IMG/VR virus record: IMGVR_UViG_3300029319_009278 | Span: 1-52,418 of that record | DNA: 52,418 nt | Strand: one strand, 5' to 3' | Source of the DNA: a virus | The notes under the pieces: generated by a model | Told to the model about the DNA's origin: nothing | Databases searched by the model: none | What the model saw: the letters and a program-made list of their open reading frames with translations, nothing else | Position numbers and translations under genes: made by a program | In this document: positions 19,801-52,069 of the stretch, one piece after another | Layout of the letters: every line of letters begins with the position of its first letter | Numbering within the stretch: the stretch's first letter is position 1

Positions 19801-22800
19801 TATAGGAACAGCAGTTGGTTCGCCATCAGCAGATGTAAATTGGTCAACCCATATACCAAGGCTAGTAAATAAGGCTAAAGCAAGATTGTCATCATCGGCT
19901 CCAGAGGACAACCCACTAATACCAATCGTAGTTGCGTTAGAAGAATTGGGATTAGTAGAAGCATCTAAAGTTGCAGAATATGTATTTCCGTCAATTTCTA
20001 ATGTGAGAGTTTCGCCGTTTGCAAATTGTGCGCTATTTAAAGTTATTGAGCCCGAGGAAAAACCAAATTTATTTACACCCTCATTTAACAAATCAAGTGT
20101 AGATACTGACCTGAACCCTTGCGTTGTGTTTGCTCCGTACACAAACATTATAGTTTCTGAAGAGCCTGTAAAGCCTCCAAAGGCGACGTGCTCCTTAAGT
20201 CCTCTTGAGAGGTTTTGACGAACCGGAACATTCCTAAAAGGAAGGGCGTTATTTGGAGAAAACTGGTTTGATGGCACATCTCTAAACTGTGCTTTCGAAT
20301 CTAACTTGCTACCCGGTGCAGCAAATCTTTGCACCAAGATAGATTTTGTTTTTTTCGGTGTACCAATCTCTCTTGGATTGTTAAAATCTACACTTCCAGT
20401 TCTTCCTTGGTTTCGAATTATTGGCGGCGTGAGAAAAGCAGATGGTAAGGAGCCACTAGCCAAAGATGATGTATAATAATTGCTTAAATTGAAGGCAAAG
20501 TCAGTATTTGTTGCAGCACGATCTTGTGTGAATACAACTTCATAATTTCTTGAGTAGTTACCCAGGACGCTTACTCCGCCAGTAAGCAAGGGCACAGACC
20601 CATGAGCATCTAAAATTGTGCCTGATGTTTTTATGTTGGCAATGTTTACGGACCTGTGGACACCCAAGCCTTTTGTGTAGTGACCTTTAGGCGTATCTGA
20701 TACCTCATGAATACTAAATGTTCCAGCACCGTTGTCTGTTAAGGATAAATTAAATGATTCTTTTCTCCCGAAAGGGGAACCATTTGAGCCCGATGGAGTC
20801 AGTGGGGCGACGGATCTTGCTTGTGCTCCTCCAACATGTGCAAGCGTAAATGGACCTTGCAACGCTGTTGTTTTTTGGTGCAGGTTTGCTAAATCTACAT
20901 TTGTCATCCCTTGTACAACAAGCTCTGCTTGGTAGCCATTTGTCACAGACGAACTTATAGCGGTGAACGGTGATAACAACTCTCCAGAATAGTTGCCCTC
21001 GCCGTATGAAGACGAGTAAGTCCTTGTCTTCTTAAGGTTGGGGACAATCACATCTTTAGAATATTTTTCTTGTTCAAATCCGCCAAAAGAAAGGTTTATG
21101 ATGCCAGGGTTTTGTCTGTTTATTTTATTAGTCTTGTAAGAATTGATTCCTATATCGACAACAAGATTAGACAACCTTGATGCATCAATTCGATAAACAG
21201 AACCTGAAAGGTTGGGGTAATTTTTGACCTGATCAAATATCGCTCTCCTAGAGGCCATAACCCCTGTGTCGGATGAAGATATGACTAGGTTTTCTCTTTC
21301 TGCTTGATACTTCCACCAATAAGAATGATTTGATTCTTCTTGTATAATTGGAGTTAGTTTTAGACCACCAAAGCCGTGATAGTTTCCTATTCTGTCCTTG
21401 TTTACTACCCCACCAGCCTGGACAGAGTTTTGAGGGAAGGGTATTGGGGGAGTCCTGATGTCCACTTCAAGAACATTGCCATTATCATTTTTGTTGTATT
21501 TTTGAGGTCCAACAAACTTATGATGGTATTTTGGTCTCTCAAGTAGATGACTCTCCACCATAGTTCGAAGCGACGATGCGTGCCTAGAAGATGCGGGAAA
21601 CATCTGCTGGAGCATTTGTCCTATTGACATGTCGATCCACTTATAATAATCAAGATACTTCTGTAGATCTGGTGTGTTGCCGACTCTCCTAAAGAACACT
21701 TCTCTTAGCTTTTCCATTGACTTGTAATTTGGTCTGTATTTATTGACAGGCTCACCAATAAGATTGTTAAGCTCATCGATAGACGCAAAAAGCTCAAGCA
21801 TAGTTCTGGAAATGCTTTGGTACATGCTTTTTTCTGCGGAGAAATAATAATTTGTTGGTCTTAAGTTTGTCCCAAACACTCGAACGTCTGTATCAAGGAC
21901 GCTAATCATGTCGTCCCCTATTGCATATTCGGGTAACATTTTGTTCTCTGCATAAACATATTCTTTTCGGGCAGGCGTGCCTGATTCAGCAAAAAACTGT
22001 CCCTTACCTGTATGTTTTGCCAGGTTTATTTTACTATAAAGCGACCCTTGTCTTATGGCTTCGTTTGCATGAGGCAGTCCGGCCGCTTGTCTTTCAGCAG
22101 CTTCAAACACATTTGATCCTGAAGAATAGTCCGTGACCGTAAAGGTTCCATCTGTTGCGCTGCTTGTAATGTTTGCGAAATTCCAATGCAGGGCGAGCGT
22201 CTCAATTTTTGGTACGTAAACATTAGGACTATCATCTTGATAAGAATAAGCATTTCGATACGGATTTATTCTACCCCATGAGTTAACCTCTCTGGCGTGT
22301 ACATCTATTGTTCCTGTGGGTATTTTATCTGTCCAGTACCTTAAGCTTGAAATTCTTGCATCAGAAGAGTCAAGAATAGACCCTGTAAAGTTTGTTCTGT
22401 GAGCACCAGCGTATAATCTCTTTCTGTTTACCAATGTAGCAGAACCACTAAAGTAGCTCATTCCGCCATCAATGTCAGATGATCCAGTAAAACTAGAAGA
22501 AACATAGAAGCTATTTCTTTTTATACCCGAATCGTAATTAACACCATAAAATGTCAGAGTATATGCAGAGCCTGTTGCCAGTGTATCATTTAAATTTTTC
22601 CAATTTTGGTAAGCGGGAGCCGCACCAAGAGCGCCAGTTACAAAGGGGTACTTTGTGGGACTGAGAGTTAGGGAAAAATTCCACTTTTGATTGTCATAAA
22701 CGTCTGGAAACACAGGGCTGTTTAGTATTAAATCTCCAACCCTGTTTCTAACTTGAAAATAAGCACCTTTTAGTCTAGATTTTTCGCCAGCCGTATCGCC

Positions 22801-39922: not shown

Positions 39923-40309
39923 TTAACGCTCCAAAACGCTTGTTGTTGAATATTTTGGTATTCTATCAAAAAAAACAACCTGTTTAGAGTGCTGTGATCC
40001 TACAACTTCCCTATCTCGGTAGTCAGAGCCAACAACCAAATAATCAGGGCTGTATTCTTCTATTGTGTCCTCTAAATGCTGTTTTGATGAAAAACACACA
40101 ACCTTGTCAACATACTTTATAGACTCTAAAAGGAACTTTCGGTCCTTTACAGTATTAAAAGGACGGGAAGGTCCCTTATCCTTTTTGACCTTACTGTCTG
40201 TATCAATACCCACAATCAAAATATCACCAAGAGATTTAGCATACTTTAACATCTCAATGTGCCCTCTATGCAAAACATCAAAACAACCATTTGTCCAAAC
40301 AGTAATCAT
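39923..40309 (-). CDS. Cytidylyltransferase-family sugar nucleotidyltransferase (HldE C-terminal domain-like)
   Basis: 128 residues. The start TNGCFDVLHRGHIEMLKYAK is the classic nucleotidyltransferase opening with HxGH at residues 14-17, as in the HldE/RfaE2 domain. That domain transfers AMP to D-glycero-beta-D-manno-heptose 1-phosphate, giving ADP-heptose. Here it is a stand-alone gene next to a PfkB kinase of the HldE N-terminal type (ATGA overlap), so the two functions of HldE are encoded separately. The end (YSTTSVLER) is slightly shorter than in HldE. Glycerol-phosphate or other sugar-phosphate substrates remain possible. Confidence 0.85.
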   Translation of the reverse strand: MITVWTNGCFDVLHRGHIEMLKYAKSLGDILIVGIDTDSKVKKDKGPSRPFNTVKDRKFLLESIKYVDKVVCFSSKQHLEDTIEEYSPDYLVVGSDYRDREVVGSQHSKQVVFFDRIPKYSTTSVLER

Positions 40310-41052
40310 ACTATACTAACACCTCTCTTTTGAACAACCTTTGTTGCACAAGCGTTGGCAAACTGAATTGCTTTTTCGATGCTGCTTGTCTTCACATACT
40401 CTGACACCAGGGCTGCTATGTAAGTGTCGCCGGCCCCAGAACTATCTTTGATCTCGACATGATCAACTGGATATGTTCTCTCATTGTATTTTGATCCTTT
40501 TGAACCAAGGGTAACGATTAGCTTACTATCAAGAACCTCTGTTATCAAGTGCTTTGTTCTCTCGTATTCATAAGAATTAATCTTAATGTACTTAAGATCA
40601 TTACACCATTCTCCCAAAAGTTTTTTTGTATCAAGAAACACACTTTCATGTGAAAGAGAAATTTGTCTTATATCGTCTTCGGTCAGAAAACCCTTACAGT
40701 AATCAGAAACAATAATTGCTGAATACTCTGATAAATCTGCTGATTTAAACTTTTCTTGGTCAAACTTATTTTCAACTTTATCACGCAAATCTATGCGCAA
40801 AAACATGTGGTTCGTTCTAGAATCAATATATCTCGTTTTTGTTGATTCTTCCCAGTTATCGTTTGTTATGATGTCACAACTAACCCCTAAAGATTCAATA
40901 TTACGAACAACGTTCATTGCCATCCCTGGATTCTGTACTGTACGAGTAGGGTTGAGGATTGGCGCAGGGGCGTCAGGACACAAACGCTCGCAATTGCCGT
41001 AGCAAAAAACATCTGTACAACTCTCACCAATAACCAGCACCTTCTTGCTCAT
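40306..41052 (-). CDS. PfkB-family sugar kinase (HldE N-terminal domain-like)
   Basis: 248 residues, shorter than the usual 310-320 of the HldE kinase domain. Motifs: RLCPDAPAPILNP (residues 23-35, the RfaE-type opening), VSDYCKGFLT (115-124, equivalent to the SDYGKG motif) and DSSGAGDT (203-210) with catalytic D209. The family phosphorylates heptose 7-phosphate at O1 using ATP. It overlaps both neighbours by ATGA. Together with the nucleotidyltransferase it could make a nucleotide-activated heptose, or a related hexose. The short length suggests a lost loop or a different substrate. Confidence 0.85.
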   Translation of the reverse strand: MSKKVLVIGESCTDVFCYGNCERLCPDAPAPILNPTRTVQNPGMAMNVVRNIESLGVSCDIITNDNWEESTKTRYIDSRTNHMFLRIDLRDKVENKFDQEKFKSADLSEYSAIIVSDYCKGFLTEDDIRQISLSHESVFLDTKKLLGEWCNDLKYIKINSYEYERTKHLITEVLDSKLIVTLGSKGSKYNERTYPVDHVEIKDSSGAGDTYIAALVSEYVKTSSIEKAIQFANACATKVVQKRGVSIV

Positions 41053-42056
41053 CTTGTTAAAAATCTTCCGCCAGATGACACTCTGTCTCTCCAGTAATTC
41101 AAGAGATCATTCATTGTTTTTTCAAAAGGTATTTCAGGTTCCCAGCCAGTATGGTTTTTAAATTTTTTCGTGTCTGGGACTTGGAGGTCTGCATCAATTG
41201 GTCTTAATCTTGCCGGGTCTGTTTCGACCTTTATATCTTTTACGGTTGACTGGCTTACCAAATAGTCCAACATCTCTTTTACAGTGCAAGTATATGATCC
41301 ACCAATGTTGTAATACTCTCCCGCAACAGGATCTTTAGTTACCAAAAGATAATAAGCCCTAACAGCATCTCTTACATCTGACCATGTTCTTAAGGAGTCT
41401 AAATTTCCAACCTTTATTACTGGAGGGATTAGCCCATTTTCTATCATCGCTATTTGTTTGGCAAAGGTCGATTCAGCAAAAACGTCTCCTCTTCTCGGTC
41501 CCGTGTGAGTGAACATGCGGGTGGTCATAATTGTCATCTCGTATGCTTCGGCATAATATCGACCAATTAAATCTGTTCCTACTTTCGATATTGCGTAAGG
41601 TGACGCTGGGTGAAATTTTACTTCTTCATGAATGGGTAAGAATTCTTTTGGCACTCTTCCAAAAACTTCCGACGAAGCACAGACATGAATTACGGGATTT
41701 GCTTCTGATCTCTTAATCGCTTCCAGTAATTTAGCTGTGCCAATTATATTAGTTTCAAGCGTTTCTAGTGGTGCTACAAAACTAGTTTGTGGGTAGCTTT
41801 GGGCAGCTAGATGAAAAACATATTCAGGCTTTGATTCTTCTACAGCACTCAACAGAGAAGCCAGATCATTTAAATCGCCATAGACGAGTTGTATCCTATC
41901 CTCTTTATTTATTTCTTCCGCAAGGTGAGATACATTCTCCAAAGAATCGTTCCAGCGACAAAACCCATATATTTTCCAATCAGTGTTCTCTAAAATATAA
42001 TCAGCAAGGTGAGATCCAACCATGCCAGTTATTCCTGTTATTAAAACATTGGTCAT
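41049..42056 (-). CDS. gmd: GDP-mannose 4,6-dehydratase-family enzyme
   Basis: 335 residues from ATG 42056 (the frame's first codon upstream is TTG). Rossmann motif GITGMVGSHLAD, active-site S-S-E (residues in CASSEVFGRV), and Y-x3-K in SPYAISK, with HTGPRRGDVFAE after it. The C-terminus has the family ending TGWEPEIPFEKTMNDLLNYW. Gmd removes water from GDP-mannose to form the 4-keto-6-deoxy sugar, the entry to fucose, colitose and perosamine. Related enzymes act on GDP-heptose. Overlap with the dioxygenase gene is TGATG, with AGGAG upstream. The substrate is inferred from family. Confidence 0.85.
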   Translation of the reverse strand: MTNVLITGITGMVGSHLADYILENTDWKIYGFCRWNDSLENVSHLAEEINKEDRIQLVYGDLNDLASLLSAVEESKPEYVFHLAAQSYPQTSFVAPLETLETNIIGTAKLLEAIKRSEANPVIHVCASSEVFGRVPKEFLPIHEEVKFHPASPYAISKVGTDLIGRYYAEAYEMTIMTTRMFTHTGPRRGDVFAESTFAKQIAMIENGLIPPVIKVGNLDSLRTWSDVRDAVRAYYLLVTKDPVAGEYYNIGGSYTCTVKEMLDYLVSQSTVKDIKVETDPARLRPIDADLQVPDTKKFKNHTGWEPEIPFEKTMNDLLNYWRDRVSSGGRFLTR

Positions 42057-42844
42057 CAAACAAAATCTCCTGAATCATAACGGTCTAATAACTCTCTTCG
42101 TGCCGTCCACCCAGGCCAGAAAGGTTCCTTTTCCTTAATATAGACGGCATAAATAGTTCTTCTCCACTTTGTGGGGTGATTGTTTTTAAAAGCTTTATGC
42201 AGCAGGAGACCATGTACAACCAAAACATCCCCAGCTTCGTACTCCAGTTGGAGAGTTTCTAGATCATCAGAGAGTTTGTTGCCTTCTGGATCCGTGTAAT
42301 CACTTAAATTTTCTGCGTCGCCGATAGGAGCACTTTGGTACAAGTTTCCGTCTTCATCTCTAGAGAAATTAGGAGTCGGCTCAAACTTCAACATGCCGAA
42401 CTTATGACTACCAGGGACCACAATCAAGGATCCATTTGTTTCATCAGCATCATCCACAATAAGCGCCAAGTTTAGGTAATTGCCGCCGTTTGGTGCCATT
42501 GGTGCAAAGTTATCTTGATGCCAAATTGACCCAAGCTCTAGAGGATTATTTGGCTTGCAAAAAAACGTTGTACTGCTAATTGGTATTGCTCTGCCGCCAC
42601 ATATTGCATCAGCTATGTCACACATTTTTTTACCACGATGAGCATCTTTAACACTACCGTGGTGATGGATATCTAATCTGACTGTAAAGTGACCCTCGGC
42701 CGCTTTATCCATATCACGCCTTATAACGTCAACATCTTCTTTTGTCCAGACATTCTTTAGTAAAAGATATCCATTTTCATTAAAAAAGTTTAGATCTTCT
42801 TCGGTAACAGAATAAGAGTCCATATGTGTTTTTAATTCGTTCAT
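42056..42844 (-). CDS. PhyH-type Fe(II)/2-oxoglutarate dioxygenase
   Basis: 262 residues. Metal ligands are visible: H109-x-D111 (IWHQDN) and the distal H216 (LLLHKAF), with the 2-oxoglutarate arginine R228 or R229 (TKWRRT). The family hydroxylates aliphatic carbons using Fe(II) and 2-oxoglutarate. The N-terminus (about 12-30: VTEEDLNFFNENGYLLLKN) is the typical PhyH start. It lies inside the sugar cassette, overlapping neighbours on both sides, so a sugar, lipid or small-molecule substrate connected to the cell surface is likely. AAGGAG precedes the start. Substrate unknown. Confidence 0.85.
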   Translation of the reverse strand: MNELKTHMDSYSVTEEDLNFFNENGYLLLKNVWTKEDVDVIRRDMDKAAEGHFTVRLDIHHHGSVKDAHRGKKMCDIADAICGGRAIPISSTTFFCKPNNPLELGSIWHQDNFAPMAPNGGNYLNLALIVDDADETNGSLIVVPGSHKFGMLKFEPTPNFSRDEDGNLYQSAPIGDAENLSDYTDPEGNKLSDDLETLQLEYEAGDVLVVHGLLLHKAFKNNHPTKWRRTIYAVYIKEKEPFWPGWTARRELLDRYDSGDFV

Positions 42845-43791
42845 TCCATATTCTCCTTATACCATTTTAGTGTTTCTAATAGTCCGCTCTCAAGGCTATA
42901 TGAAGGCTCCCATCCAAGCTTTTCTTTGGCATAAGAGCAATCTAGGTACAAGGAGGTTGGCACTGTTGGTTTCGACAAATCGTGGACGATTTCCAAATCT
43001 TTACCGGAGCACTCAATAACCTTCCTTACAAGATCTTTAATTTTTATTTTCTCACCAAGACCAACATTAAACAATTCGTATTTCTCTTCTTGGTTTTGTA
43101 AAGCGGACTCAACAAACAAGACCAAATCTTTGATATACAAAAGATCTCGTGCTTCTTCACCCGTACCCCAAACGTTTACTTTACCATCTTCCGACGTCAT
43201 TACTTTTGTAATTGTCGCCCCTGTTACGTGTGACTTTTCAAGATCATACTTATCGTGCGGACCATACATGTTTGAGTGCCTTATTACAGTATGTTTTGTT
43301 TTTCCAAAGCCAGCATAAAATTCGCACATCTTTTCTAAATAAATTTTTGTATGCCCCGCCCCAAAATAGAAAGGAAGCAAATCATCAGATGGATTAAAGT
43401 CTGTTTCTTTAAGCGCATTCTCTGATTTTTGGTACATTATAGTGCAACTAGGGAAGACAAAGTGTTCTATACCTTGTTCAAAAGCCTCTCGGAGAAGAAG
43501 AGAATTCATTACAGCGTTATCAGTTACGTGAATATATGGTTTAGAAACGATGTCTTTAGCCCCTGTTGTCGTTGCCGCAAATTGAAATACTATATCTACA
43601 TCCGTTAAGACGTCCCTGACCTCTTCAGGATTTCTTAAATCACACTTGACCCATTCCACTTCACCATAGCCAGGAACAGGGTTCCTCTTGAAATGAGTAG
43701 CTCTTATAGTATATTTTGGGTTCTTGGAAAAATGATCCAATAAGTTTTTTCCAATAAATCCAGTGGCTCCGCAGATTAAAATCTTTTTCAT
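42841..43791 (-). CDS. NAD-dependent epimerase/dehydratase, GDP-fucose synthase-like, atypical Tyr position
   Basis: 316 residues. Rossmann motif GATGFIGKNLLD, active-site PSCTIMY, and HSNMYGPHDKYD. It resembles GDP-fucose synthase/epimerase-reductases. Instead of a clean YxxxK, the site reads PFYFGAGHTK: the tyrosine is seven residues before the lysine rather than four. I checked the DNA for this. Either a different alignment places the acid, or the catalysis is altered. The C-terminal half ends in the family's LGWEPSYSLESGLLETLKWY. It probably acts in the last steps of nucleotide-sugar synthesis. Overlaps neighbours by ATGA. Confidence 0.8.
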   Translation of the reverse strand: MKKILICGATGFIGKNLLDHFSKNPKYTIRATHFKRNPVPGYGEVEWVKCDLRNPEEVRDVLTDVDIVFQFAATTTGAKDIVSKPYIHVTDNAVMNSLLLREAFEQGIEHFVFPSCTIMYQKSENALKETDFNPSDDLLPFYFGAGHTKIYLEKMCEFYAGFGKTKHTVIRHSNMYGPHDKYDLEKSHVTGATITKVMTSEDGKVNVWGTGEEARDLLYIKDLVLFVESALQNQEEKYELFNVGLGEKIKIKDLVRKVIECSGKDLEIVHDLSKPTVPTSLYLDCSYAKEKLGWEPSYSLESGLLETLKWYKENME

Positions 43792-44372
43792 TTTGGTCTT
43801 CCATCTATAACTAAATCGCTTTCACCATTTTTCATAGCTGTATATATCTTATTCACAACAACATCAACATCCATAGCATTTTGTCTATCGGGCGTTGTTT
43901 TTATGTTTGTAGGGTAAACATCCAAAATATGTAAATTTTCTTTTTCGCTCTTTAGGCTATTTGAGAAACCTCTTAATCCCCACTTTGTTGCTGAATATAA
44001 TGTTCTTGGGGACTTTACTTCTAATCCCACCATTGAATTTATGTTTATAACAGATTCTAAAACTGGAAGCAACTCCTGTGTTAGAAAAATAGGGGCGATT
44101 AGATTTACTTTAACCATATCTTCTATTTTCTCTCTGGAATATTCTTCGAATGGTATACTAGGGCAAACAATGGCGGCATTGTTCACAAGAACATTTACAC
44201 CCCATTCTTTAGCTTCTTGACATAAGTTTACAATATCATCCTTTTTTCGTAAATCAAAATGATTACTTCCTTGGTGTGAAAATACCTCATACCCCTCATT
44301 GACAAATTTTTTTACTAGCGAAACGCCGAGTCCAGAGTTCGCACCAGTTATTAAAACCTTACCCAAAGACAT
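43788..44372 (-). CDS. Short-chain dehydrogenase/reductase
   Basis: 194 residues, shorter than the usual 240-260. It has TGANSGLG (cofactor), NNAAI, a serine at SMVGL, and YSATK (Y-x3-K). Classical SDRs reduce ketones with NAD(P)H; here it probably reduces a sugar ketone or aldehyde. The C-terminal substrate region is short. It overlaps the epimerase by ATGA at its end and the upstream gene by 14 bases at its start, so it belongs to the same operon. Substrate unknown. Confidence 0.83.
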   Translation of the reverse strand: MSLGKVLITGANSGLGVSLVKKFVNEGYEVFSHQGSNHFDLRKKDDIVNLCQEAKEWGVNVLVNNAAIVCPSIPFEEYSREKIEDMVKVNLIAPIFLTQELLPVLESVININSMVGLEVKSPRTLYSATKWGLRGFSNSLKSEKENLHILDVYPTNIKTTPDRQNAMDVDVVVNKIYTAMKNGESDLVIDGRPK

Positions 44373-45327
44373 TGTAACGCTTATCCACTATATTTTTGTG
44401 CTGCTCAAACCACTCTATGGTCTCCAGAATTCCTTGTCTTATTGAAATTGAGGGCTCAAATCCATACGATCTAGCTCGCTCCATATCAAAAACACGCCGT
44501 GGATCACCAGCAGGACCATCTGTAAGCCACTTTATTTCTTTATTATATCTTTCAGCTATGACCTCTGCGATTTCTTTGATTTTCACACCGGACCCGCTGC
44601 CCAAGTTTATCGGCTCTGTTATTTTATTCTTAACTGCGTGTAACATTCCGAGAGCAACGTCTCTTGCATGAATAAAGTCTCTAACAGGGCTACCATCGCC
44701 CCAAACTTCTAACTCACTATTTTCAGAAGCTTTCCTTATAAGTGATGGGATAACCATGGCATTTTTTGGATCAAAGTTATCATAAGGTCCATAGACATTT
44801 GCAGGGCGAACGATAGAACACTTACCTTCACCGAACTGTACCTTATAAGCTTCGCACTGGAGTTCTCCCATTCTTTTTGCCCAGCCGCCATACCAGTCGT
44901 TTCTTGAAGGCTGTGTTTTCCAAACTGCGTCTTCGTACAGAACTTCTGCGGGCTCATAAACGCCGACCGTGCTTGTATACAAATACCACTCCACGCCCTC
45001 GCCCATTGCTGCTTCCAGCATGTTTGTATTAAACTGCAACATTGGACCCATAATGGTGGCCGGCTTTTCTAGGCATATTTTTGGTGATGCTTTTATTCCT
45101 ACAAGATTAAAAACGTATTCCATGCCTTTGCAGATATCTCTACAGCTTGAATACTCTTTTAGGTCAACTTTGCAAAACTCTATCTTATCGGACATGTTAA
45201 TTGGTTCATTCAGATCAGCCACTCTTACAGTGGCACCTTCCTCAATTAACATATCAACTAGCTGGCGTCCTATCATTCCGCTACCACCAGTTACTAGAAC
45301 TTTCTTATTCTTAAAATCAACAGTCAT
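44359..45327 (-). CDS. NAD-dependent epimerase, GDP-fucose/colitose synthase-like
   Basis: 322 residues with GGSGMIGRQLVD, TSTVGVYE and RPANVYGPYDNFDPK. The tyrosine and lysine read WYGGWAKR, a spacing of five, so the YxxxK is again shifted by one, possibly by an inserted Gly. The C-terminal part GSGSGVKIKEIAEVIAERYN fits GDP-fucose synthase-like reductases. It overlaps the ColD-like gene by 11 bases, which supports a role right after ColD (ColC-like: C5 epimerisation and C4 reduction). GAGG lies about 9 bases before the start. The exact reaction is not proven. Confidence 0.8.
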   Translation of the reverse strand: MTVDFKNKKVLVTGGSGMIGRQLVDMLIEEGATVRVADLNEPINMSDKIEFCKVDLKEYSSCRDICKGMEYVFNLVGIKASPKICLEKPATIMGPMLQFNTNMLEAAMGEGVEWYLYTSTVGVYEPAEVLYEDAVWKTQPSRNDWYGGWAKRMGELQCEAYKVQFGEGKCSIVRPANVYGPYDNFDPKNAMVIPSLIRKASENSELEVWGDGSPVRDFIHARDVALGMLHAVKNKITEPINLGSGSGVKIKEIAEVIAERYNKEIKWLTDGPAGDPRRVFDMERARSYGFEPSISIRQGILETIEWFEQHKNIVDKRYNVFG

Positions 45328-46480
45328 TTAGAGCCTCACATAGAGATTTTATTTGTTCCTCTGTCAGTTCTGTATGGTTTCCAATGTACAAGCCATAATC
45401 ATGAATATGATTAGCCACATCTAGACTTCCAAGTATTCTATACTCATATTTTTCCAAGTAAGGTTGACGAGCCTGGTTTCCGCCTCCGGCTGTTCCAATT
45501 CTATATTCTACTGATTGTTTTTCTAAAGTGTTGCACACTCTCTGGAAAAGATCTTTATCCTTGTCCGCTAAAACCAAAGGTAAAGCAAAACTACTATTAC
45601 CTTCAAGATTATAGCCTGTAAAATATCTTTCTTGGTCAAGATTGTCAAGCCATACTTTCAGGTTTTCTGCCCTTTTTTCAACCGCAAAATCTAATTTGTT
45701 TATCTGCTCTAGTCCAAGCACTGCATTAAACTCTGTATTTCTTAAGTTGTAGCCTGGTACAGCAAAAGTGAAAAGAGGATTTAGGTCTGGGTAATTCGAG
45801 GCGTATTCATTTTTGTATTCTTCAGAAACCTCTCTAATCATGCCGTGAGACCGAAACATTTTTGCCAATTGATAAACACGCTCATCATTTGTACAGACAA
45901 CCCCTCCCTCAACTGTTGTTATATGGTGTCCAAAATAGAATGAGAAGTTAGACATAAGTCCAAAGTTACCTATTTTCACACCATTGTGAGTCGCTCCGTG
46001 TGACTCGCAACAATCCTCTATCAAAACTAGGTCTTTTTCTTTTGCTAGGTCTATAAGATCGTCTGTAAGGGCATCAAAACCAAGAGCGTGGACCAGTGTT
46101 ATTCCTATGGTTTTGTCATTTACCGCTGCTTTTATGTTCTCATAGGTTATTGCCATATTCTCTAAGTCTACATCAACAAAAACTGGCGTTAAGCCAAGAT
46201 TTACCAACGGAGCAATATCAGACACCCAGCCGATTGGTGGAACAATAACTTCGCCGCCACCCTTTAGCTCTTTCATAATGGATGCCATAATGTAATTTGC
46301 TGATGCACCTGAATTGACGAAAACTGTGTATTTCACACCAAGCCACTCTGACCATGCTTGTTCAAATTTCCGAACATACTTTGATTGTGTAAATCTAACA
46401 TCCGGTTCTTGAAGCCACTCAATCAAGACTTCTTTATCTCTTTGTGTTATATTGTCGTTAATCAACGGCCATTCATACAT
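45317..46480 (-). CDS. colD: ColD-like PLP sugar 3-dehydratase (Lys replaced by His)
   Basis: 387 residues from ATG 46480, with GAGGAAA upstream; the frame extends further but lacks that site. It is a DegT/DnrJ/EryC1 fold enzyme. Where aminotransferases carry the Schiff-base lysine (SxxxxK..TTxEGG), it reads FYFGHHITTVEGG with H185 in the lysine place. This is the hallmark of GDP-4-keto-6-deoxymannose 3-dehydratase (ColD, His188), and the length equals ColD (388). The C-terminal YIGNH also recalls ColD. The four iron-sulfur cysteines of the CDP-sugar enzyme E1 are not seen. Product: 3,6-dideoxy-4-keto sugar. Substrate is inference. Confidence 0.85.
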   Translation of the reverse strand: MYEWPLINDNITQRDKEVLIEWLQEPDVRFTQSKYVRKFEQAWSEWLGVKYTVFVNSGASANYIMASIMKELKGGGEVIVPPIGWVSDIAPLVNLGLTPVFVDVDLENMAITYENIKAAVNDKTIGITLVHALGFDALTDDLIDLAKEKDLVLIEDCCESHGATHNGVKIGNFGLMSNFSFYFGHHITTVEGGVVCTNDERVYQLAKMFRSHGMIREVSEEYKNEYASNYPDLNPLFTFAVPGYNLRNTEFNAVLGLEQINKLDFAVEKRAENLKVWLDNLDQERYFTGYNLEGNSSFALPLVLADKDKDLFQRVCNTLEKQSVEYRIGTAGGGNQARQPYLEKYEYRILGSLDVANHIHDYGLYIGNHTELTEEQIKSLCEALNDC

Positions 46481-46922
46481 ATGCTTTCCTCGCTTTCTCA
46501 AAATCATAATCATCAAATTCTACGTTGTAATTATCTTCATTCTCTGGGTGCCACGCTGGGTTACAGAGGTTTAATACCGCAGAGGTTTCTTCGGAAAGAT
46601 TTAATGTGGCTGAAGGTACATTAGCTGGCACTTCAACGACTACAGGATGATCTTCTGAAGATAAAAACTCACGGTACCCTTCTTTGGGGTCTTTAACAAT
46701 AATCAAGACCTTTCCTCTAATGCAAACAAAGTAGTCCCAACGTGTTTTGTGTAAATGAGGACCCTTTAACACTCCTGCATGATAAGTTGTAACATACGCC
46801 TCCATTGGCGGAAGCTCTCTTTGTCCCTCGTAGTGTTTCCATACAGAAATCAGCTTTCCGTTGATCTCTCCAGTCCGCTGGTCCCTGGTCTCTACACAAT
46901 AACGATCATATGTTTTTATCAT
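46473..46922 (-). CDS. RmlC-like cupin sugar epimerase
   Basis: 149 residues. A cupin with the dTDP-4-dehydrorhamnose 3,5-epimerase pattern: GVLKGPHLHKTRWDYFVCIR (compare GVLRGLHYQ), then GKVLIIVKDPKEGYREF and VEVPANVPSATLNLSEE. RmlC-type enzymes epimerise C3 and/or C5 of 4-keto sugars without metal. In modified-heptose pathways RmlC-like proteins work after a Gmd-like dehydratase. It overlaps the E1 beta gene by 17 bases and the ColD-like gene by 8. It is shorter than RmlC (about 180), so one-site epimerase activity is plausible. Could also be another WxcM-type cupin. Confidence 0.8.
   Translation of the reverse strand: MIKTYDRYCVETRDQRTGEINGKLISVWKHYEGQRELPPMEAYVTTYHAGVLKGPHLHKTRWDYFVCIRGKVLIIVKDPKEGYREFLSSEDHPVVVEVPANVPSATLNLSEETSAVLNLCNPAWHPENEDNYNVEFDDYDFEKARKAYV
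46485..46491 (-). promoter_or_regulatory. Shine-Dalgarno site deciding the ColD-like start
   Basis: GAGGAAA on the minus strand, 4 bases before ATG 46480. It favours the MYEWPLINDN start over the earlier frame start at 46516. Confidence 0.65.
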
Positions 46923-47826
46923 TATTAGAAATTCCTAACACTTTTTCAACAATCTTTTCTGCCGTTGGGGGCAGATTATCTACATCCGGATGAAATCCAG
47001 CAGTCCGGGGCTCAAGACCCATCACGTCCACAGGTTTACTAGTTTCCAACATCAACTCATGAGCCATAGGTCTGGCAACGCCATCCACATAATCATCGTC
47101 AAGAACTATGCCACCAAATTTTGATTGCAAAAGAATGTTTTTCCATTCGCTTTTTATAATATACGGCTTTAACCACAACTGATGTATTACGCTGACCTTG
47201 TATCCCTTCGTCGCTAAAATTTTACTGGCTTCTTGTGCAGCAAAACGAGTAATGGATATGGGAAATAAAACTATGTCTGGATCATCATGGATTATATCTG
47301 GGAGTTCCTCTGTATTGCCATAACTTCCTCTGTGTTCCGAAACATAAAATACATCGTCCTGGCTCATAAAATCTTTGTATATTTGTTTGTATTCCATCGG
47401 TGTCATCGGAGAAACAATCTTAACTCCAGGCATCCTGTAATACAAAGAATGATGTGAGGAGCTTGCAACAGGTCCGGTTCCTCCTTCCATGGCAATACTT
47501 CTAACAAATATTGGGCACGGTATTTTCCACAGTTCTTTTGATTTGCAGGCATAGTTTACTATCATAGGTGAATTGTACCAATTAAACCCCTGATACCTTA
47601 TAATGTACATTGGTCTTCTGCCAACCAGTCCAGACCCTACCACAATACCACCGCCGGCAACGTCTGCCATGGAAAGCTCAACCATGCCGTCTTCCTCATA
47701 GAGTTCCGGTAAAGTTCCTCCAACCCAACCAACAGCAGTCAAACACTGCCCAAACGCCAAGCCATTCTCTTTTGTAAGGTGGTGTCTTACAGTCTCTTTT
47801 ATTGTTTCTCTAACTGTCTTTGCCAT
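46906..47826 (-). CDS. E1 beta-type TPP-dependent enzyme subunit
   Basis: 306 residues. It matches the pyrimidine-binding/transketolase C domain pair of 2-oxoacid dehydrogenase E1 beta: AFGQCLTAVGWVGG, then ELSMADVAGGGIVVGSGLVG and EGGTGPVASSSHHSLYYRMP, with a C-terminal transketolase-C-like half from about 185. It pairs with the E1 alpha gene upstream, overlapping it by 28 bases. No E2/E3 genes are present, so it is unlikely to be a normal pyruvate dehydrogenase. Within a sugar cassette it may transfer a two-carbon unit, as proposed for branched sugars. Function is inference. Confidence 0.85.
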   Translation of the reverse strand: MAKTVRETIKETVRHHLTKENGLAFGQCLTAVGWVGGTLPELYEEDGMVELSMADVAGGGIVVGSGLVGRRPMYIIRYQGFNWYNSPMIVNYACKSKELWKIPCPIFVRSIAMEGGTGPVASSSHHSLYYRMPGVKIVSPMTPMEYKQIYKDFMSQDDVFYVSEHRGSYGNTEELPDIIHDDPDIVLFPISITRFAAQEASKILATKGYKVSVIHQLWLKPYIIKSEWKNILLQSKFGGIVLDDDYVDGVARPMAHELMLETSKPVDVMGLEPRTAGFHPDVDNLPPTAEKIVEKVLGISNNDKNI

Positions 47827-48632
47827 GTTTTTTCTATCATTTCCTTGGTCTCAAGATGTACATTCAAAGCCTCATCACCAAGCGAATCCATTTCTGTCTG
47901 ATATCTGTCAAACGTGTCATCAGAATCTTTTCCCGCTCCACTATGCCAGTAAAGACGATGAGTGTTAACATTTAGTAAAACTGGGACACTGAAAGCATCT
48001 GTTAAATGGCTGCGTATTTCCAGAGGGTCATCAGATGTTTGAGTCGCTTTCATTTTGAAAGCTTTAGCAACGTCATCCATTTCCCAGTTTCTTCTTACCT
48101 TCTTTTCTGTTAAAATTGATAGATTATTGTCCTCTACAACAAACAAGATCGGCAAGTTTTTTGTAGAAGCCCAACCAAGAGCACCTAAAACATAATCTTC
48201 TTCAGCGGAGGCATCTCCCATCACTGCAATCGTCGGATGATTCGAACTATAGGCTGCACCTACCGCAATCGGTACCTGGCTTCCCATTAGTCCGTCGTGA
48301 CCATACATATTAATTTCTGGTCCGTGTACCGACGCCGAACCTCCCATGCCATAAGCACAGCCCGATGGTCTACCCAATAATTCATCTATTAATTTAACAA
48401 GGTCGCCACCAAAAGAAAGATACAAAGAGTGACACCTGTGTTGTCCAAATATCATCGGACTCATGTCTCCAAGAACAGTAGCGATAGTGGCCGAAATATA
48501 TTCTTGCCCCGCCGACATATATGTTGGAAACTTTATGTTTTTTTCTTCGATCATTTTGTAGAGATAATTTTCAAAGTTTCTACACATGGAAGCTTTCTTA
48601 AAAACCTCCATTCTAAAATCTCTGTCATTCAT
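47799..48632 (-). CDS. E1 alpha-type TPP-dependent enzyme subunit
   Basis: 277 residues from ATG 48632 (MNDRDFRMEVFKKASM). The TPP motif reads GDASAEEDYVLGALGWASTK then VVEDNN: GDA in place of the usual GDG, with the NN end about 30 residues later. The E1-alpha phosphorylation-loop region, here around NTHRLYWHSGAGKDSDD, also fits. The start with a GGAAAG site at 7 bases is preferred over the longer frame; it overlaps the HAD gene by 8 bases. It forms a heterotetramer with E1 beta, by family. It may decarboxylate a keto acid and pass the activated aldehyde to a sugar. Confidence 0.83.
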   Translation of the reverse strand: MNDRDFRMEVFKKASMCRNFENYLYKMIEEKNIKFPTYMSAGQEYISATIATVLGDMSPMIFGQHRCHSLYLSFGGDLVKLIDELLGRPSGCAYGMGGSASVHGPEINMYGHDGLMGSQVPIAVGAAYSSNHPTIAVMGDASAEEDYVLGALGWASTKNLPILFVVEDNNLSILTEKKVRRNWEMDDVAKAFKMKATQTSDDPLEIRSHLTDAFSVPVLLNVNTHRLYWHSGAGKDSDDTFDRYQTEMDSLGDEALNVHLETKEMIEKTWQRQLEKQ

Positions 48633-49095
48633 AAAAAACTTTCCAATCCACAACAGAGCTACTATCGTGACTTGTTATGCCGCTTATTTTTTGCGCACTT
48701 TTTAAATGCTTCTCGTCGTCATCATAAAACACACATTGACTTATTTTGTCAAGTACATTAGCTTTAGAAAAGGTTTTATATTTAAGGATTTTATTTTCTC
48801 CAAACAACTCGTAAATACCAAATTGTTTAAGCAAATTTATTGACGGCTGGTCTTTTTCTTCTAGTCCCCATGCCGCCCCAACAGATAGAAACCCGATCTC
48901 GTTTCCCTGGGAAATCAAATATTCGATATAGTTGGAAATATTTTTTCGCAAAACACAGCGTGACCCAACGTCATCAAATATTACATTACCCTCTTTTCGG
49001 TACGGTCGTAACATTTGTTTAGCCCAAATAGGGCGACCAGTTACATCATATGTGTCCCAAATTGTTCTATCTAAATCAAAAATATGCAATGTCAT
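48625..49095 (-). CDS. HAD phosphatase (MDP-1/HAD-IIIC-like)
   Basis: 156 residues. Motif I is IFDLDRTIWD (DxDxT), as in the MDP-1/FkbH-type HAD IIIC group, and the late acidic motif is VFYDDDEKHL. A serine is at FLSVG for motif II. The family hydrolyses phosphate esters; in sugar gene clusters such proteins often act on sugar phosphates or glyceryl-ACP intermediates. It overlaps the cupin gene by ATGA at its start and E1 alpha by 8 bases at its end. Substrate unknown. Confidence 0.8.
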   Translation of the reverse strand: MTLHIFDLDRTIWDTYDVTGRPIWAKQMLRPYRKEGNVIFDDVGSRCVLRKNISNYIEYLISQGNEIGFLSVGAAWGLEEKDQPSINLLKQFGIYELFGENKILKYKTFSKANVLDKISQCVFYDDDEKHLKSAQKISGITSHDSSSVVDWKVFYE

Positions 49096-49751
49096 TTTGA
49101 CACGACCAACAACAACGAATCTTTGACAATTTCGAAGTCTTTTGACAACTGCTTAAACACTTTGCCAACGACCACATCACCAGGCTGATATATCGGATCC
49201 TTCTTATCGCTAATGAGTCCTCCCCTGAAACACATCAAAAGGTCATCATCTAAAAACTCATTAGGATCTGTCTTTGTTGAAAGTTTTTTTAGGTCCATCT
49301 GCTTGCCACAGAAAACAAAAGAATCATTTTTGTAGTCATCATCTTTCAGAAAGAGACAATCTTCATCCCTTTCCATCTCCGATTCTTTACCCTCATAAGG
49401 CTTGGACTTTCTTCCGTACTCATCCTTCAGACGAACTAGATCATCTTTCATTTTTGGTGCTTCTATCTCAAACATATAAACACCATTTTCTGATACGGCT
49501 TTTGTTGAGTGAAACAACCCTCTTCTGATCATCATCTTATCAGGAGATTCAACCATAAATGAATCATTAAGAAACGATATTTTTGCTGTGCCATCAAGGA
49601 CGATAAGTCCTGTGTTTTTTCTCGGGTGACAATGCATCGAAGTTCGTTGTCCCGGCTCTATCCTTAACAGCCAAAGACCTACATCATCATTTTCATACAC
49701 AAGGTATTCATGTCCCCATGGTTTTTTGACAACTACGTTTTCATAGGACAT
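49092..49751 (-). CDS. Cupin protein, sugar-phosphate isomerase-like
   Basis: 219 residues. The N-terminal cupin contains KKPWGHEYLVYENDDVGLWL and then PGQRTSMHCHPRKNTGLIVL with the H-x-H metal pair (MHCH), as in type II mannose-6-phosphate isomerases. A long acidic insertion (about 110-150) and a C-terminal region (GDVVVGKVFKQLSKD) follow. It is thus larger than a bare cupin. It may be an isomerase or a binding protein for sugar phosphates feeding GDP-mannose. It overlaps the HAD gene by ATGA. A regulatory role is possible. Confidence 0.72.
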   Translation of the reverse strand: MSYENVVVKKPWGHEYLVYENDDVGLWLLRIEPGQRTSMHCHPRKNTGLIVLDGTAKISFLNDSFMVESPDKMMIRRGLFHSTKAVSENGVYMFEIEAPKMKDDLVRLKDEYGRKSKPYEGKESEMERDEDCLFLKDDDYKNDSFVFCGKQMDLKKLSTKTDPNEFLDDDLLMCFRGGLISDKKDPIYQPGDVVVGKVFKQLSKDFEIVKDSLLLVVSK

Positions 49752-49759
49752 TTTTTATT

Positions 49760-50311
49760 TTATCCTCGGTATCCGTCCGACGATTCATTGTAAGTTTCTA
49801 TCGATGTCTTCATCCATGGCCCCATCCACTTGTAGTGCGGGGAAGAAATAACATTGCCAGACCTAACTGCCGGTGCATCAACATATACAGCACCAGCATT
49901 ATTAATATCATCCTTGATACTATAATATCCTGAAATTTCTCTTCCTTCTACAATTCCAGACGAAATTAAAAGCTGGGCTCCGTGGCACGTACTAGCAATA
50001 ACTTTGCCTCTCTTGTTCCACTCGTTAACAAAACGAAGAACCTGCTCTTCTTGCCTCAACTTTTCAAGCGCCTTTACGCCGCCTGGGATGACAAGAAAAT
50101 CATACTCATTCATGATTTGTTTAAATCCATCAGCACTGTTCAATTCGTCAGTTGTTCTAGAACTTTCCATGTTCGTGCCAAGAATACCATAGATTCTTCC
50201 TGTCACGTTCGCCATAATATCTACTTGAAAACCTTCCTCGTCAAGTCTATAATATGGGTAGATAACCTCGTGGTCTTGAAACTTTTCCCAAGTAATAATT
50301 AAAGCTTTCAT
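49760..50311 (-). CDS. DJ-1/PfpI-family protein
   Basis: 183 residues. The nucleophile elbow is ASTCHGAQLL with C109 followed by H110, and E15 lies at the place of the family's conserved glutamate. The C-terminal SSPHYKWMGPWM is the YhbO/PfpI-type ending. The family includes deglycases and chaperones that remove early glycation products, and some proteases. Beside sugar-aldehyde-producing enzymes a deglycase-like or aldehyde-handling role would make sense. It overlaps the next gene (50308) by ATGA. Function is inferred from fold. Confidence 0.82.
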   Translation of the reverse strand: MKALIITWEKFQDHEVIYPYYRLDEEGFQVDIMANVTGRIYGILGTNMESSRTTDELNSADGFKQIMNEYDFLVIPGGVKALEKLRQEEQVLRFVNEWNKRGKVIASTCHGAQLLISSGIVEGREISGYYSIKDDINNAGAVYVDAPAVRSGNVISSPHYKWMGPWMKTSIETYNESSDGYRG

Positions 50312-50727
50312 TTTTTCTCCTTATTATTCCAGCTTATTTCCCAATCTTTAAAATCAGCAGCCAAGCAGTCTATTTTGTAATCTTTTCTGCCGCCAGCAAT
50401 TTCTTGTATTTTGTTTTTAGCAGTGTTTCTAATCCCATTCAATCCATGGGTCAGTTCAAGATTGTTGCCATCTTTTATGCCTTTTCTATAGTTCGACTCG
50501 TTGTGCCAAATGTGTAAATTCATCTGCGATAAAACAACAATAGCCCTAACGACATCACCGCTGACACTGTTTGAGTTGGATAGAAGAGTATCTATATCAT
50601 GAACAATATCCTCTATTTCTTGAGCATATTCTTTCTTGTGTTCGGGAATAAAAACTTCTTTCAATTGTACAATCGACAACCTGTCAATTAACTCTGATAG
50701 TGTTGGTAGGTATTTTCTATCTGTCAT
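50308..50727 (-). CDS. Small conserved polysaccharide-locus protein, unknown function
   Basis: 139 residues. The opening YLPTLSELIDRLSIVQLKEV and the MNLHIWHNESNYRKG segment resemble a small helical family that I have seen beside glycosyltransferases in polysaccharide loci. The protein is mostly helical with several aromatic and His residues (HNES, HGLNG). No catalytic motif is clear. GGAG lies 6 bases before ATG 50727, and the end overlaps the PfpI gene by ATGA. It may be a glycosyltransferase helper or an uncharacterised sugar enzyme. Confidence 0.72.
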   Translation of the reverse strand: MTDRKYLPTLSELIDRLSIVQLKEVFIPEHKKEYAQEIEDIVHDIDTLLSNSNSVSGDVVRAIVVLSQMNLHIWHNESNYRKGIKDGNNLELTHGLNGIRNTAKNKIQEIAGGRKDYKIDCLAADFKDWEISWNNKEKK

Positions 50728-50766
50728 GAGGACTCCATTAAAAGTATAGACTAAAAATGATTTTTA

Positions 50767-51711
50767 TTAAGAAAGATTAAGGTTTTTTTTGATAACTGCA
50801 AAAAGATTATCGTCTGAATCGAAAAAACTCTCTGCTCTTTTCAGGTTATCTTTTACTGCCTCCAGTTTTTGATGATATAAATCTGGGCTGATCGATTCTA
50901 AAATATCTAATAGCTCTGGCCCTGTATCAAATGACAGAATTCCATCTGTATTAAAGAAATCACCAATATTTGGACAGCCCCAAAATACGGGAATTGTCCC
51001 AAGTCTAAAGCAGTCTACAAGATTGTCATTGAAATAGTTTTCATGTTTTGCATTTGTTATACTCAAGGAAAAGTAGTATTGCCCTAGTGGATCCATTTTA
51101 TAATCAAAAGACTTGTAAGCTCGACCCCAAAGATCAACATCCAAATTCCTTTTTGTTATTAGATTATCGACAATCAAGTGTCGCAATTTGTGTCCTCTAG
51201 CTAACTTTGATATCTCTATATCTTTCCCTTTTTTGGAAATTATTATTGAAGCTAGTTTGCTTTTCTTTTGTATTTTACAGTCTTCCTTGTGTATAGATCC
51301 TCCGGCATGAACAGTCTTATAAAAAACATATTTTGGACCTCTGTTCAACAAGTCTTTATCATATGTAAGGATTAGATCAAATTTATCCTCTACCATTGTT
51401 ATCCACTCATAAGCAAACGGATGTATAGATCGACACTCATTTAAAAGAGCAACCTTATATTTTGTATTTACCTGATCTGTCATTGGAGACAATAAGTCTT
51501 TGTCGGAAAAAATTGTTACTTCAACATCTTCTTCTGGTAGTCTATTTAATGGCTTTAAAGACTCTGGCTGTATTCCGCCGCCGTAGACCCATTCCACATT
51601 TTTTGGCTCTGGGTGGAACTCTGTCGGGGAAAAAGAGTAGTATCCCATTTCCTCGTTGTAGTTCTCCTTGGATATCAAACTACAATAAAAGTTAACTTTA
51701 GTTCTAGTCAC
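50767..51711 (-). CDS. GT10 fucosyltransferase-like glycosyltransferase
   Basis: 314 residues with a GTG start. The C-terminal half (about 212-245) carries the GT10 alpha-1,3/4-fucosyltransferase core: YYFSLSITNAKHENYFNDNL, then RLGTIPVFWGCPNIGDFF (compare FxLxFENS...YITEK...G.VPVYxG). GT10 enzymes move fucose from GDP-fucose onto glycans; a colitose or other GDP-deoxy sugar donor is plausible here. The N-terminal half is the acceptor Rossmann domain. The usual E in the motif is D/N-rich. It is the only glycosyltransferase seen. The GTG overlaps the cupin stop (8 bases); the ribosome site is weak. Confidence 0.83.
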   Translation of the reverse strand: MTRTKVNFYCSLISKENYNEEMGYYSFSPTEFHPEPKNVEWVYGGGIQPESLKPLNRLPEEDVEVTIFSDKDLLSPMTDQVNTKYKVALLNECRSIHPFAYEWITMVEDKFDLILTYDKDLLNRGPKYVFYKTVHAGGSIHKEDCKIQKKSKLASIIISKKGKDIEISKLARGHKLRHLIVDNLITKRNLDVDLWGRAYKSFDYKMDPLGQYYFSLSITNAKHENYFNDNLVDCFRLGTIPVFWGCPNIGDFFNTDGILSFDTGPELLDILESISPDLYHQKLEAVKDNLKRAESFFDSDDNLFAVIKKNLNLS

Positions 51712-52069
51712 CTTTCACGACCCTATAACTGTCACTGTCAAAATGCTGCGTTGAGAATTCAAAAAGTTCTGAATCCTCTAGAGCAATCATCTGATGTCTT
51801 AACCCTCGGTAGACCCAGAAGTTTTCTCCGGCATTTAGAATAAGCTCACTTGCTTCCTCTAGGTTGTCATCATCACCATACTTAATCAACATTTTTCCTG
51901 ATTGCAGGTAAAAGACTTCATCCTTTAGCTTATGGTAGTGCCAAGAGCACCGCTTATCTTTGTTGAAAAACAGTAGCTTGCCGCAATACTCTTCCTTGTT
52001 GACAATCCACCTTTCCCAGCCCCAACCTTTATCTACGTGTTGCATTTGTAAAATACTTTTGTTTACCAT
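51704..52069 (-). CDS. Cupin protein, mannose-6-phosphate isomerase type II-like
   Basis: 121 residues, a single cupin. GWGWERWIV opens it, then NKDKRCSWHYHKLKDEVFYL carries H-x-H (WHYH) and a Glu ligand, and ENFWVYRGLRHQMIALED closes the barrel with another His. The pattern fits the C-terminal isomerase domain of ManC/WcbM-type proteins or free sugar cupins. It may interconvert mannose and fructose phosphates, which would feed GDP-mannose, or isomerise a keto sugar. It overlaps the SDR gene by 7 bases and the GT10 gene by 8. Confidence 0.78.
   Translation of the reverse strand: MVNKSILQMQHVDKGWGWERWIVNKEEYCGKLLFFNKDKRCSWHYHKLKDEVFYLQSGKMLIKYGDDDNLEEASELILNAGENFWVYRGLRHQMIALEDSELFEFSTQHFDSDSYRVVKGD

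Follow-up and report, generated by a model that had tools for sequence, protein, structure and literature searches.

The window analysed here, the first 52.4 kb (52,418 nt) of a 66,148-bp virus record, encodes a sugar 3-dehydratase of the ColD type, in which the PLP lysine of the related aminotransferases is replaced by a histidine, His185. Sequence, fold and gene context together establish the class of the enzyme, the histidine and the missing Fe-S ligands, and they also reveal an operon and a family-wide association with thiamine diphosphate (TPP) enzymes. That the protein dehydrates its substrate at C3 is, by analogy, very probable. The best explanation for the whole set of genes is ColD-type C3-dehydration of what is probably a GDP-heptose, followed by addition of a two-carbon branch at C4 by a TPP-dependent E1 pair, a proposal that we regard as evenly balanced between right and wrong.

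A ColD-type dehydratase in a phage operon

The phage origin of the locus is supported, since the window belongs to a virus record and encodes a baseplate wedge protein and an endolysin. The baseplate protein is closest to proteins of Microcystis phage Mel-JY01, an uncultured phage and Flavobacterium phages (31-34% identity). A 3,733-aa ORF at 13879-25080 adjoins the baseplate genes and is probably structural.

The dehydratase is one of 17 minus-strand genes that form a single run at 39923-52069 (Table 1). Most neighbouring genes overlap, by 4-29 bases, and gaps occur at two places (8 and 39 bases); co-expression of the run is therefore likely. The reading frame of the dehydratase has its stop at 45317 and likely starts with the ATG at 46480, which gives the N-terminus MYEWPL..., with GAGGAAAG upstream of the start. 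A longer frame of 399 aa, with a TTG at 46516 as its start, is a less probable alternative.

Table 1. Genes of the sugar run, ordered by position in the window.
Position	Strand	Product and features
39923..40309	-	nucleotidyltransferase, nearest RfaE domain II, below equivalog cut-off
40306..41052	-	PfkB sugar kinase, nearest HldE/RfaE kinase domain, below equivalog cut-off
41049..42059	-	NDP-sugar 4,6-dehydratase, GDP-heptose (DmhA/7us5) type; Ser-Ser-Glu, Tyr, Lys intact
42056..42844	-	PhyH-type 2-oxoglutarate dioxygenase
42841..43791	-	SDRb: extended SDR, no Tyr at usual K-4 position; Ser, Cys, Lys conserved
43788..44372	-	short-chain SDR (adh_short)
44359..45327	-	SDRa: extended SDR, GDP-fucose-synthase-like, without catalytic Tyr
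45317..46480	-	ColD-type (His-type DegT) NDP-4-keto-6-deoxy-sugar 3-dehydratase, 387 aa, predicted catalytic His185
46473..46922	-	cupin, FdtA/WxcM C-terminal type; possible sugar isomerase or epimerase
46906..47826	-	E1beta-like TPP enzyme subunit (Transket_pyr)
47799..48653	-	E1alpha-like TPP enzyme subunit (E1_dh), GD...NN TPP motif intact
48625..49095	-	small HAD-type phosphatase
49092..49751	-	cupin, mannose-6-phosphate isomerase type II C-terminal-like
49760..50311	-	DJ-1/PfpI-family protein; accompanies type-1 E1alpha/beta pair
50308..50727	-	conserved protein, no Pfam match; identity 67-87% across many related phage loci (sugar islands), 47-55% in a few
50767..51711	-	GT10 (fucosyltransferase-like) glycosyltransferase; possible user of GDP-sugar
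51704..52069	-	cupin

The dehydratase is a member of the DegT family (PF01041, 233 bits) and contains the motif FYFGHHITTVEGG, which includes H185 and H186. The first-pass annotation had read H185 as a replacement of the aminotransferase lysine, and alignment with PDB sequences confirms this: His185 falls on H188 of E. coli ColD, a column fixed by entries 2r0t and 3gr9 (K) and entry 3b8x (H188N), which differ from the wild type at exactly that letter. The residue is His in all 80 viral relatives (38-77% identity) and in the bacterial relatives, whereas a Lys-type DegT encoded one gene away from the dehydratase homologue in viral locus L077 has Lys in the same column; for this reason His185 is not a chance occurrence or a sequencing error. 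The residue preceding it is Gly or Ala in the phage group, Ser in ColD and Asn in the L077 Lys-type paralogue. The equivalents of ColD W88, D159, H215, R219, F240, N248 and R250 are invariant in the 80 viral relatives. Lys-type and His-type DegT genes stand in tandem in several viral contigs (L077, L207-L215), which carry no TPP genes.

Only the first of the four Fe-S cysteines of RfbH/E1 is kept, as in ColD, in which the His is the catalytic base and the Fe-S cluster is absent (PMC8987622). When the PDB was searched with the sequence, ColD came first (E 5.9e-61) and E1 next (3e-44), the identity to E. coli ColD being about 29%. An AlphaFold2 model built from 40 relatives (pLDDT 94.2) likewise matched ColD best (Z 49.7), followed by E1 (47.8) and by aminotransferases at 44.9 and below, the gap between ColD and E1 being modest. 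Because the PLP lysine is replaced by His185, the best fold match is ColD and the Fe-S cysteine set is absent, we assign the protein to the ColD-type C3-dehydratases and not to the transaminases. The earlier proposals of a ColD-like 3-dehydratase in a phage, and of a 3-deoxy sugar as the class of product, are both supported. It is very improbable that the protein is instead an aminotransferase or an inactive homologue: phage homologues do carry the name 'aminotransferase' in databases, but the site has no lysine anywhere in the group, which led us to reject an aminotransferase identity, and in addition the active-site set is invariant, the operon is conserved and the fold is nearest to ColD. 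An RfbH/E1 identity was also rejected, with three of the four Fe-S cysteines missing and a score of 217.5 bits against a cut-off of 423.

It is worth adding that the same contig carries a second 3-dehydratase beyond the window (L004:8493-9842, approximately 59,492-60,841 of the 66-kb contig). This one is of the true RfbH/E1 type, scoring 450.6 bits with the NCBIfam model (cut-off 423), with a PAHH motif and all four Fe-S cysteines, and it adjoins a dTDP-glucose-4,6-dehydratase-like gene. No Fer2 domain was found in the contig, which is a fragment, and thus no E3-type reductase for this paralogue. The phage also has nonulosonic acid genes, for a NeuB-family synthase and a PseF-like cytidylyltransferase, at L004:5064-6604. 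A search of viral sequences for RfbH-type enzymes returned two loci only, too few for a control.

In a quick tree of DegT proteins, the close His-type relatives, phage and bacterial intermingled, group as a single clade (55 rows, SH-aLRT 99) that includes neither E. coli ColD nor the colitose-type enzymes of cyanophages. In the quick tree of 86 proteins, ColD is next outside a His clade of 73 rows, on a long branch (1.79) with moderate support.

Neighbouring enzymes and the probable sugar substrate

The neighbours had been described as Gmd-like and GDP-fucose-synthase-like. Both kinds of gene are present, but the names are only loosely right. The 4,6-dehydratase scores 178.5 bits with the Gmd family TIGR01472 (cut-off 415), and its best PDB match is the GDP-heptose 4,6-dehydratase 7us5 (364 bits, E 6.6e-108) versus 141.7 bits for E. 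coli GDP-mannose 4,6-dehydratase (Gmd, 1db3). As a control, the 4,6-dehydratase of cyanophage S-CAM7 gave the opposite pattern, with 477-494 bits for Gmd and 123 for 7us5. All 58 homologues keep the catalytic Ser-Ser-Glu, Tyr and Lys of the window enzyme. By contrast, the two extended SDRs keep Ser and Lys but not the SDR Tyr, which is absent in all 57 homologues of SDRa (Gly, Ala or Pro at the position) and all 34 of SDRb (Ala, Val, Thr or Cys). Judged by this Tyr in the homologues compared, neither SDR has the Ser-Tyr-Lys feature expected of GDP-colitose synthase.

The genes of relatives point to a heptose, which is probably the sugar on which the dehydratase acts. HddA-like kinases, whose best PDB matches include known heptokinases, lie near the dehydratase in bacterial relatives. 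In an Eubacteriales MAG (L087), a single run holds GmhA, a nucleotidyltransferase-GmhB fusion (HddC-like/GmhB), an HddA-like kinase, a GDP-fucose-synthase-like SDR, the dehydratase, E1alpha and E1beta; the GmhB part is above the cut-off of GmhB_yaeD. GmhA is also found in L086, L099 and L100. In a further locus, L090, an HddA-like kinase and the dehydratase occur with a DmhA-like gene that shares 69% identity with that of the window, and there is no TPP pair. Many bacterial relatives have no close 4,6-dehydratase within the stretch covered. In the window, the PfkB kinase and the nucleotidyltransferase are nearest to the two domains of HldE (the ADP-heptose route), although below cut-offs, and not to HddA/HddC. 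An RmlC-like gene occurs in sister loci such as L008. A B12-binding/radical-SAM-like protein, so assigned solely from a reading of its sequence, is a recurrent neighbour of the dehydratase in bacteria and in certain phages (L099:14574-16079, L091:11219-12727 and others like them).

The TPP enzyme pair and a proposed pathway

The E1beta and E1alpha homologues lie upstream of the dehydratase, with one small cupin gene between. Different loci fill this slot with one of three kinds of TPP enzyme. The window has type 1, L008 has type 2, which is short, and L038 and L091 have a split transketolase. By relationship, both type 1 and type 2 belong with the E1 of pyruvate dehydrogenase rather than with transketolase. 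The TPP motif of type-1 E1alpha has GD in 43/43 homologues, with NN in 41 and ND in 2. In E1beta, the column marked by the human PDH-beta sequence, which we take to be that of the catalytic Glu, is Asp in all 44 type-1 homologues and Glu in all 50 of type 2, and a PDB alignment of E1beta places the same acidic position there.

Of 50 close His-type relatives, 44 (viral 40/45, bacterial 4/5) have a TPP gene no more than 6 kb from the dehydratase, compared with 3/13 more distant His-type, 2/3 RfbH-type and 0/14 Lys-type DegT loci, the last being a control drawn from viral contigs. For the close His-type relatives against all the rest, Fisher p is about 2e-10, with loci counted irrespective of descent. 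The loci counted were de-duplicated, have at least 6 kb on each side, are not independent by descent and were fetched with patterns taken from the query. In a reverse search from E1beta, a His-type DegT was present no more than 5 kb away in all 15 non-redundant phage loci of type 1, 14 of which also have a heptokinase-like gene, but in only 11 of 20 type-2 loci. An origin of the link in sampling is countered by the Lys-type control and by the type-1 reverse search, less so by type 2. Mapped on the 86-protein DegT tree, the slot requires at least 21 changes when four states are told apart (type 1, type 2, transketolase-like, none) and 10 when presence or absence is scored. That the TPP neighbour was repeatedly exchanged for a different enzyme with the same chemistry speaks for a functional connection between the pair and the dehydratase. 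In phages and in a Nanoarchaeota MAG (L123:10875, L109:9965), the type-1 E1 pair also has beside it a very divergent DegT that carries His in the aligned column.

In the pathway that we propose, PLP on the dehydratase would be converted to PMP with glutamate, and the PMP would condense with a GDP-4-keto-6-deoxy sugar to give a ketimine at the 4-keto position. His185 would take up a proton and the C3 hydroxyl would leave, after which hydrolysis would give a GDP-3,6-dideoxy-4-keto sugar and ammonia, with no Fe-S cluster involved. This substrate is probably a GDP-heptose that the DmhA-like dehydratase of the same run has brought to the 4-keto-6-deoxy form, and the 4-ketone of the product probably accepts a two-carbon unit from the E1alpha/E1beta pair, acting as a carboligase of the alpha-KADH2 type. 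The result would be a C4-branched 3,6-dideoxy (or 3-deoxy) heptose, which a glycosyltransferase could transfer to a surface glycan or the virion. Each kind of chemistry has precedent: PLP-dependent 3-dehydration and 4,6-dehydration of GDP-heptose are known (PMC10440746, PMC10680097), TPP-dependent C2 transfer to sugar ketones is described for YerE and alpha-KADH2 heterodimers and proposed for transketolases (PMC12247030), and EvdU5/EvdS3 has been hypothesised to be a ketone-branching TPP enzyme (PMC10338323). It is their combination that suggests the branched heptose. Branching by the TPP pair is somewhat favoured, a little less so than the heptose itself. Counted against the proposal are the low identity to ColD and the position of ColD outside the phage clade, the HldE-like rather than HddA/HddC character of the phage genes, the many bacterial relatives without a nearby 4,6-dehydratase in the stretch covered, L090 without a TPP pair, the Asp for Glu in E1beta, the weaker association of type-2 pairs and the absence of the SDR Tyr from the candidate reductases.

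Colitose (3,6-dideoxy-L-galactose), the sugar that the first-pass annotation predicted, would be made as GDP-colitose by GDP-mannose 4,6-dehydratase, ColD and GDP-colitose synthase. The ColD-type enzyme, the GDP-fucose-synthase-like SDRs and the GT10 gene all fit such a route, and it does appear to exist in phages: a Gmd, Fcl, His-DegT and GT11 cassette that fits colitose is found in cyanophage S-CAM7 (KU686213), and a similar one, by annotation and gene order, in ACG-2014f (NC_026927). The general idea of colitose-type genes in phages thus holds for those genomes. Here the 4,6-dehydratase falls with the heptose enzymes, the catalytic Tyr is missing from the SDRs, and colitose synthesis has no use for a TPP pair or for heptokinase-like genes; the prediction is therefore unsupported. 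We are fairly confident that plain colitose is not the product, and the complete colitose route is a rather improbable account of the run.

A plain GDP-3,6-dideoxyheptose, made as in Campylobacter jejuni HS:5/HS:11 by a heptose 4,6-dehydratase, C3-dehydratase, epimerase and C4-reductase, with the TPP pair serving another sugar or branch, is unlikely but deserves more weight than colitose. It would use the DmhA-like dehydratase, the HldE-like kinase and nucleotidyltransferase and, in sister loci, the RmlC-like gene; bacterial relatives have a heptokinase, L090 has the gene set without the TPP pair, and the chemistry is known (PMC10440746, PMC10680097). However, it leaves aside the TPP gene found near most close relatives, the repeated changes in the type of the pair and the constant presence of a His-DegT near type-1 pairs, and the candidate SDR reductases have no catalytic Tyr. 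The pair might also be a transketolase-like supplier of sedoheptulose 7-phosphate to the heptose pathway, leaving the dehydratase product alone. A split transketolase does fill the slot in some relatives, and heptokinase-like genes, with GmhA in the four loci named above, co-occur; but types 1 and 2 are relatives of pyruvate dehydrogenase E1 and not of transketolase, transketolase is already present in cells, and no such gene is listed for the C. jejuni heptose clusters (PMC10680097), so that we consider this improbable.

The C4-branched heptose, which would be less common than colitose, is the reading we prefer. Taken more widely, and more tentatively still, it would mean that an unrecognised pathway is common to phages, most of them from water samples, and to scattered bacteria. 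In it an Fe-S-free ColD-type dehydratase and a two-subunit TPP carboligase may together convert a GDP-heptose to a nine-carbon 3-deoxy sugar branched at C4, the carboligase having been replaced several times by distant TPP pairs. Should this hold, phages would make branched deoxysugars of a class hitherto linked with O-antigens and antibiotics, and would do so by a route that is GDP-linked and needs no Fe-S cluster; the family would also be a source of new ketone-accepting TPP carboligases, which a 2025 review suggests may occur in viruses (PMC12247030). Phage Gmd and fucose genes have been discussed (PMC9602691); a search of open-licence papers found neither a phage 3-dehydratase nor TPP branching in phages discussed. 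Cyanophage His-type DegT genes are already in GenBank, as 'aminotransferase' or 'putative CDP-4-keto-6-deoxy-D-glucose-3-dehydrase', and the annotation of homologues filed as aminotransferases can now be corrected. Similarly, sugar predictions from phage 'Gmd-like' genes may err where the enzyme is of the heptose type.

Comparison with known systems

The closest characterised structure is that of E. coli ColD, the GDP-4-keto-6-deoxy-D-mannose 3-dehydratase (PDB 2gms, 2r0t, 3b8x), which the phage enzyme resembles in fold, in His for Lys, in the absence of the Fe-S cysteine set and in its conserved active-site residues. It differs in its low identity and separate clade, and in having a 4,6-dehydratase of another type and a TPP pair alongside. 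The GDP-6-deoxy-4-keto-heptose C3-dehydratase of C. jejuni HS:5/HS:11 (PMC10440746) is similar in having a heptose 4,6-dehydratase as partner and, as predicted for the phage, a GDP-heptose substrate. That enzyme is 62-67% identical to two characterised ColD-type enzymes, from E. coli O55:H7 and Y. pseudotuberculosis IVA (PMC10440746), compared with about 29% to E. coli ColD for the phage enzyme, and no TPP pair is reported in its pathway.

The cyanophages S-CAM7 and ACG-2014f share with the window phage a His-type DegT (39-40% identity), but its neighbours there are a canonical Gmd (tested for S-CAM7), Fcl and a glycosyltransferase, with no TPP pair. For the proposed logic as a whole, a close parallel is the yersiniose A pathway (E1/RfbH and YerE; PMC12247030), which also has a 4,6-dehydratase, a 3-dehydratase and a TPP enzyme that adds C2 to a 4-ketone; it is, however, CDP-linked, with an Fe-S E1 and a flavin-type YerE, whereas the phage route would be of the GDP type and Fe-S-free, with an E1alpha/beta heterodimer. 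The alpha-KADH2 carboligases (aldgamycin, kibdelomycin KbDH and the proposed EvdU5/EvdS3) resemble the phage pair in being two-subunit PDH-E1-like enzymes encoded beside deoxysugar genes. They are known from the secondary metabolism of antibiotic producers and not from phages, and the phage type 1 differs in having Asp at the position of the catalytic Glu.
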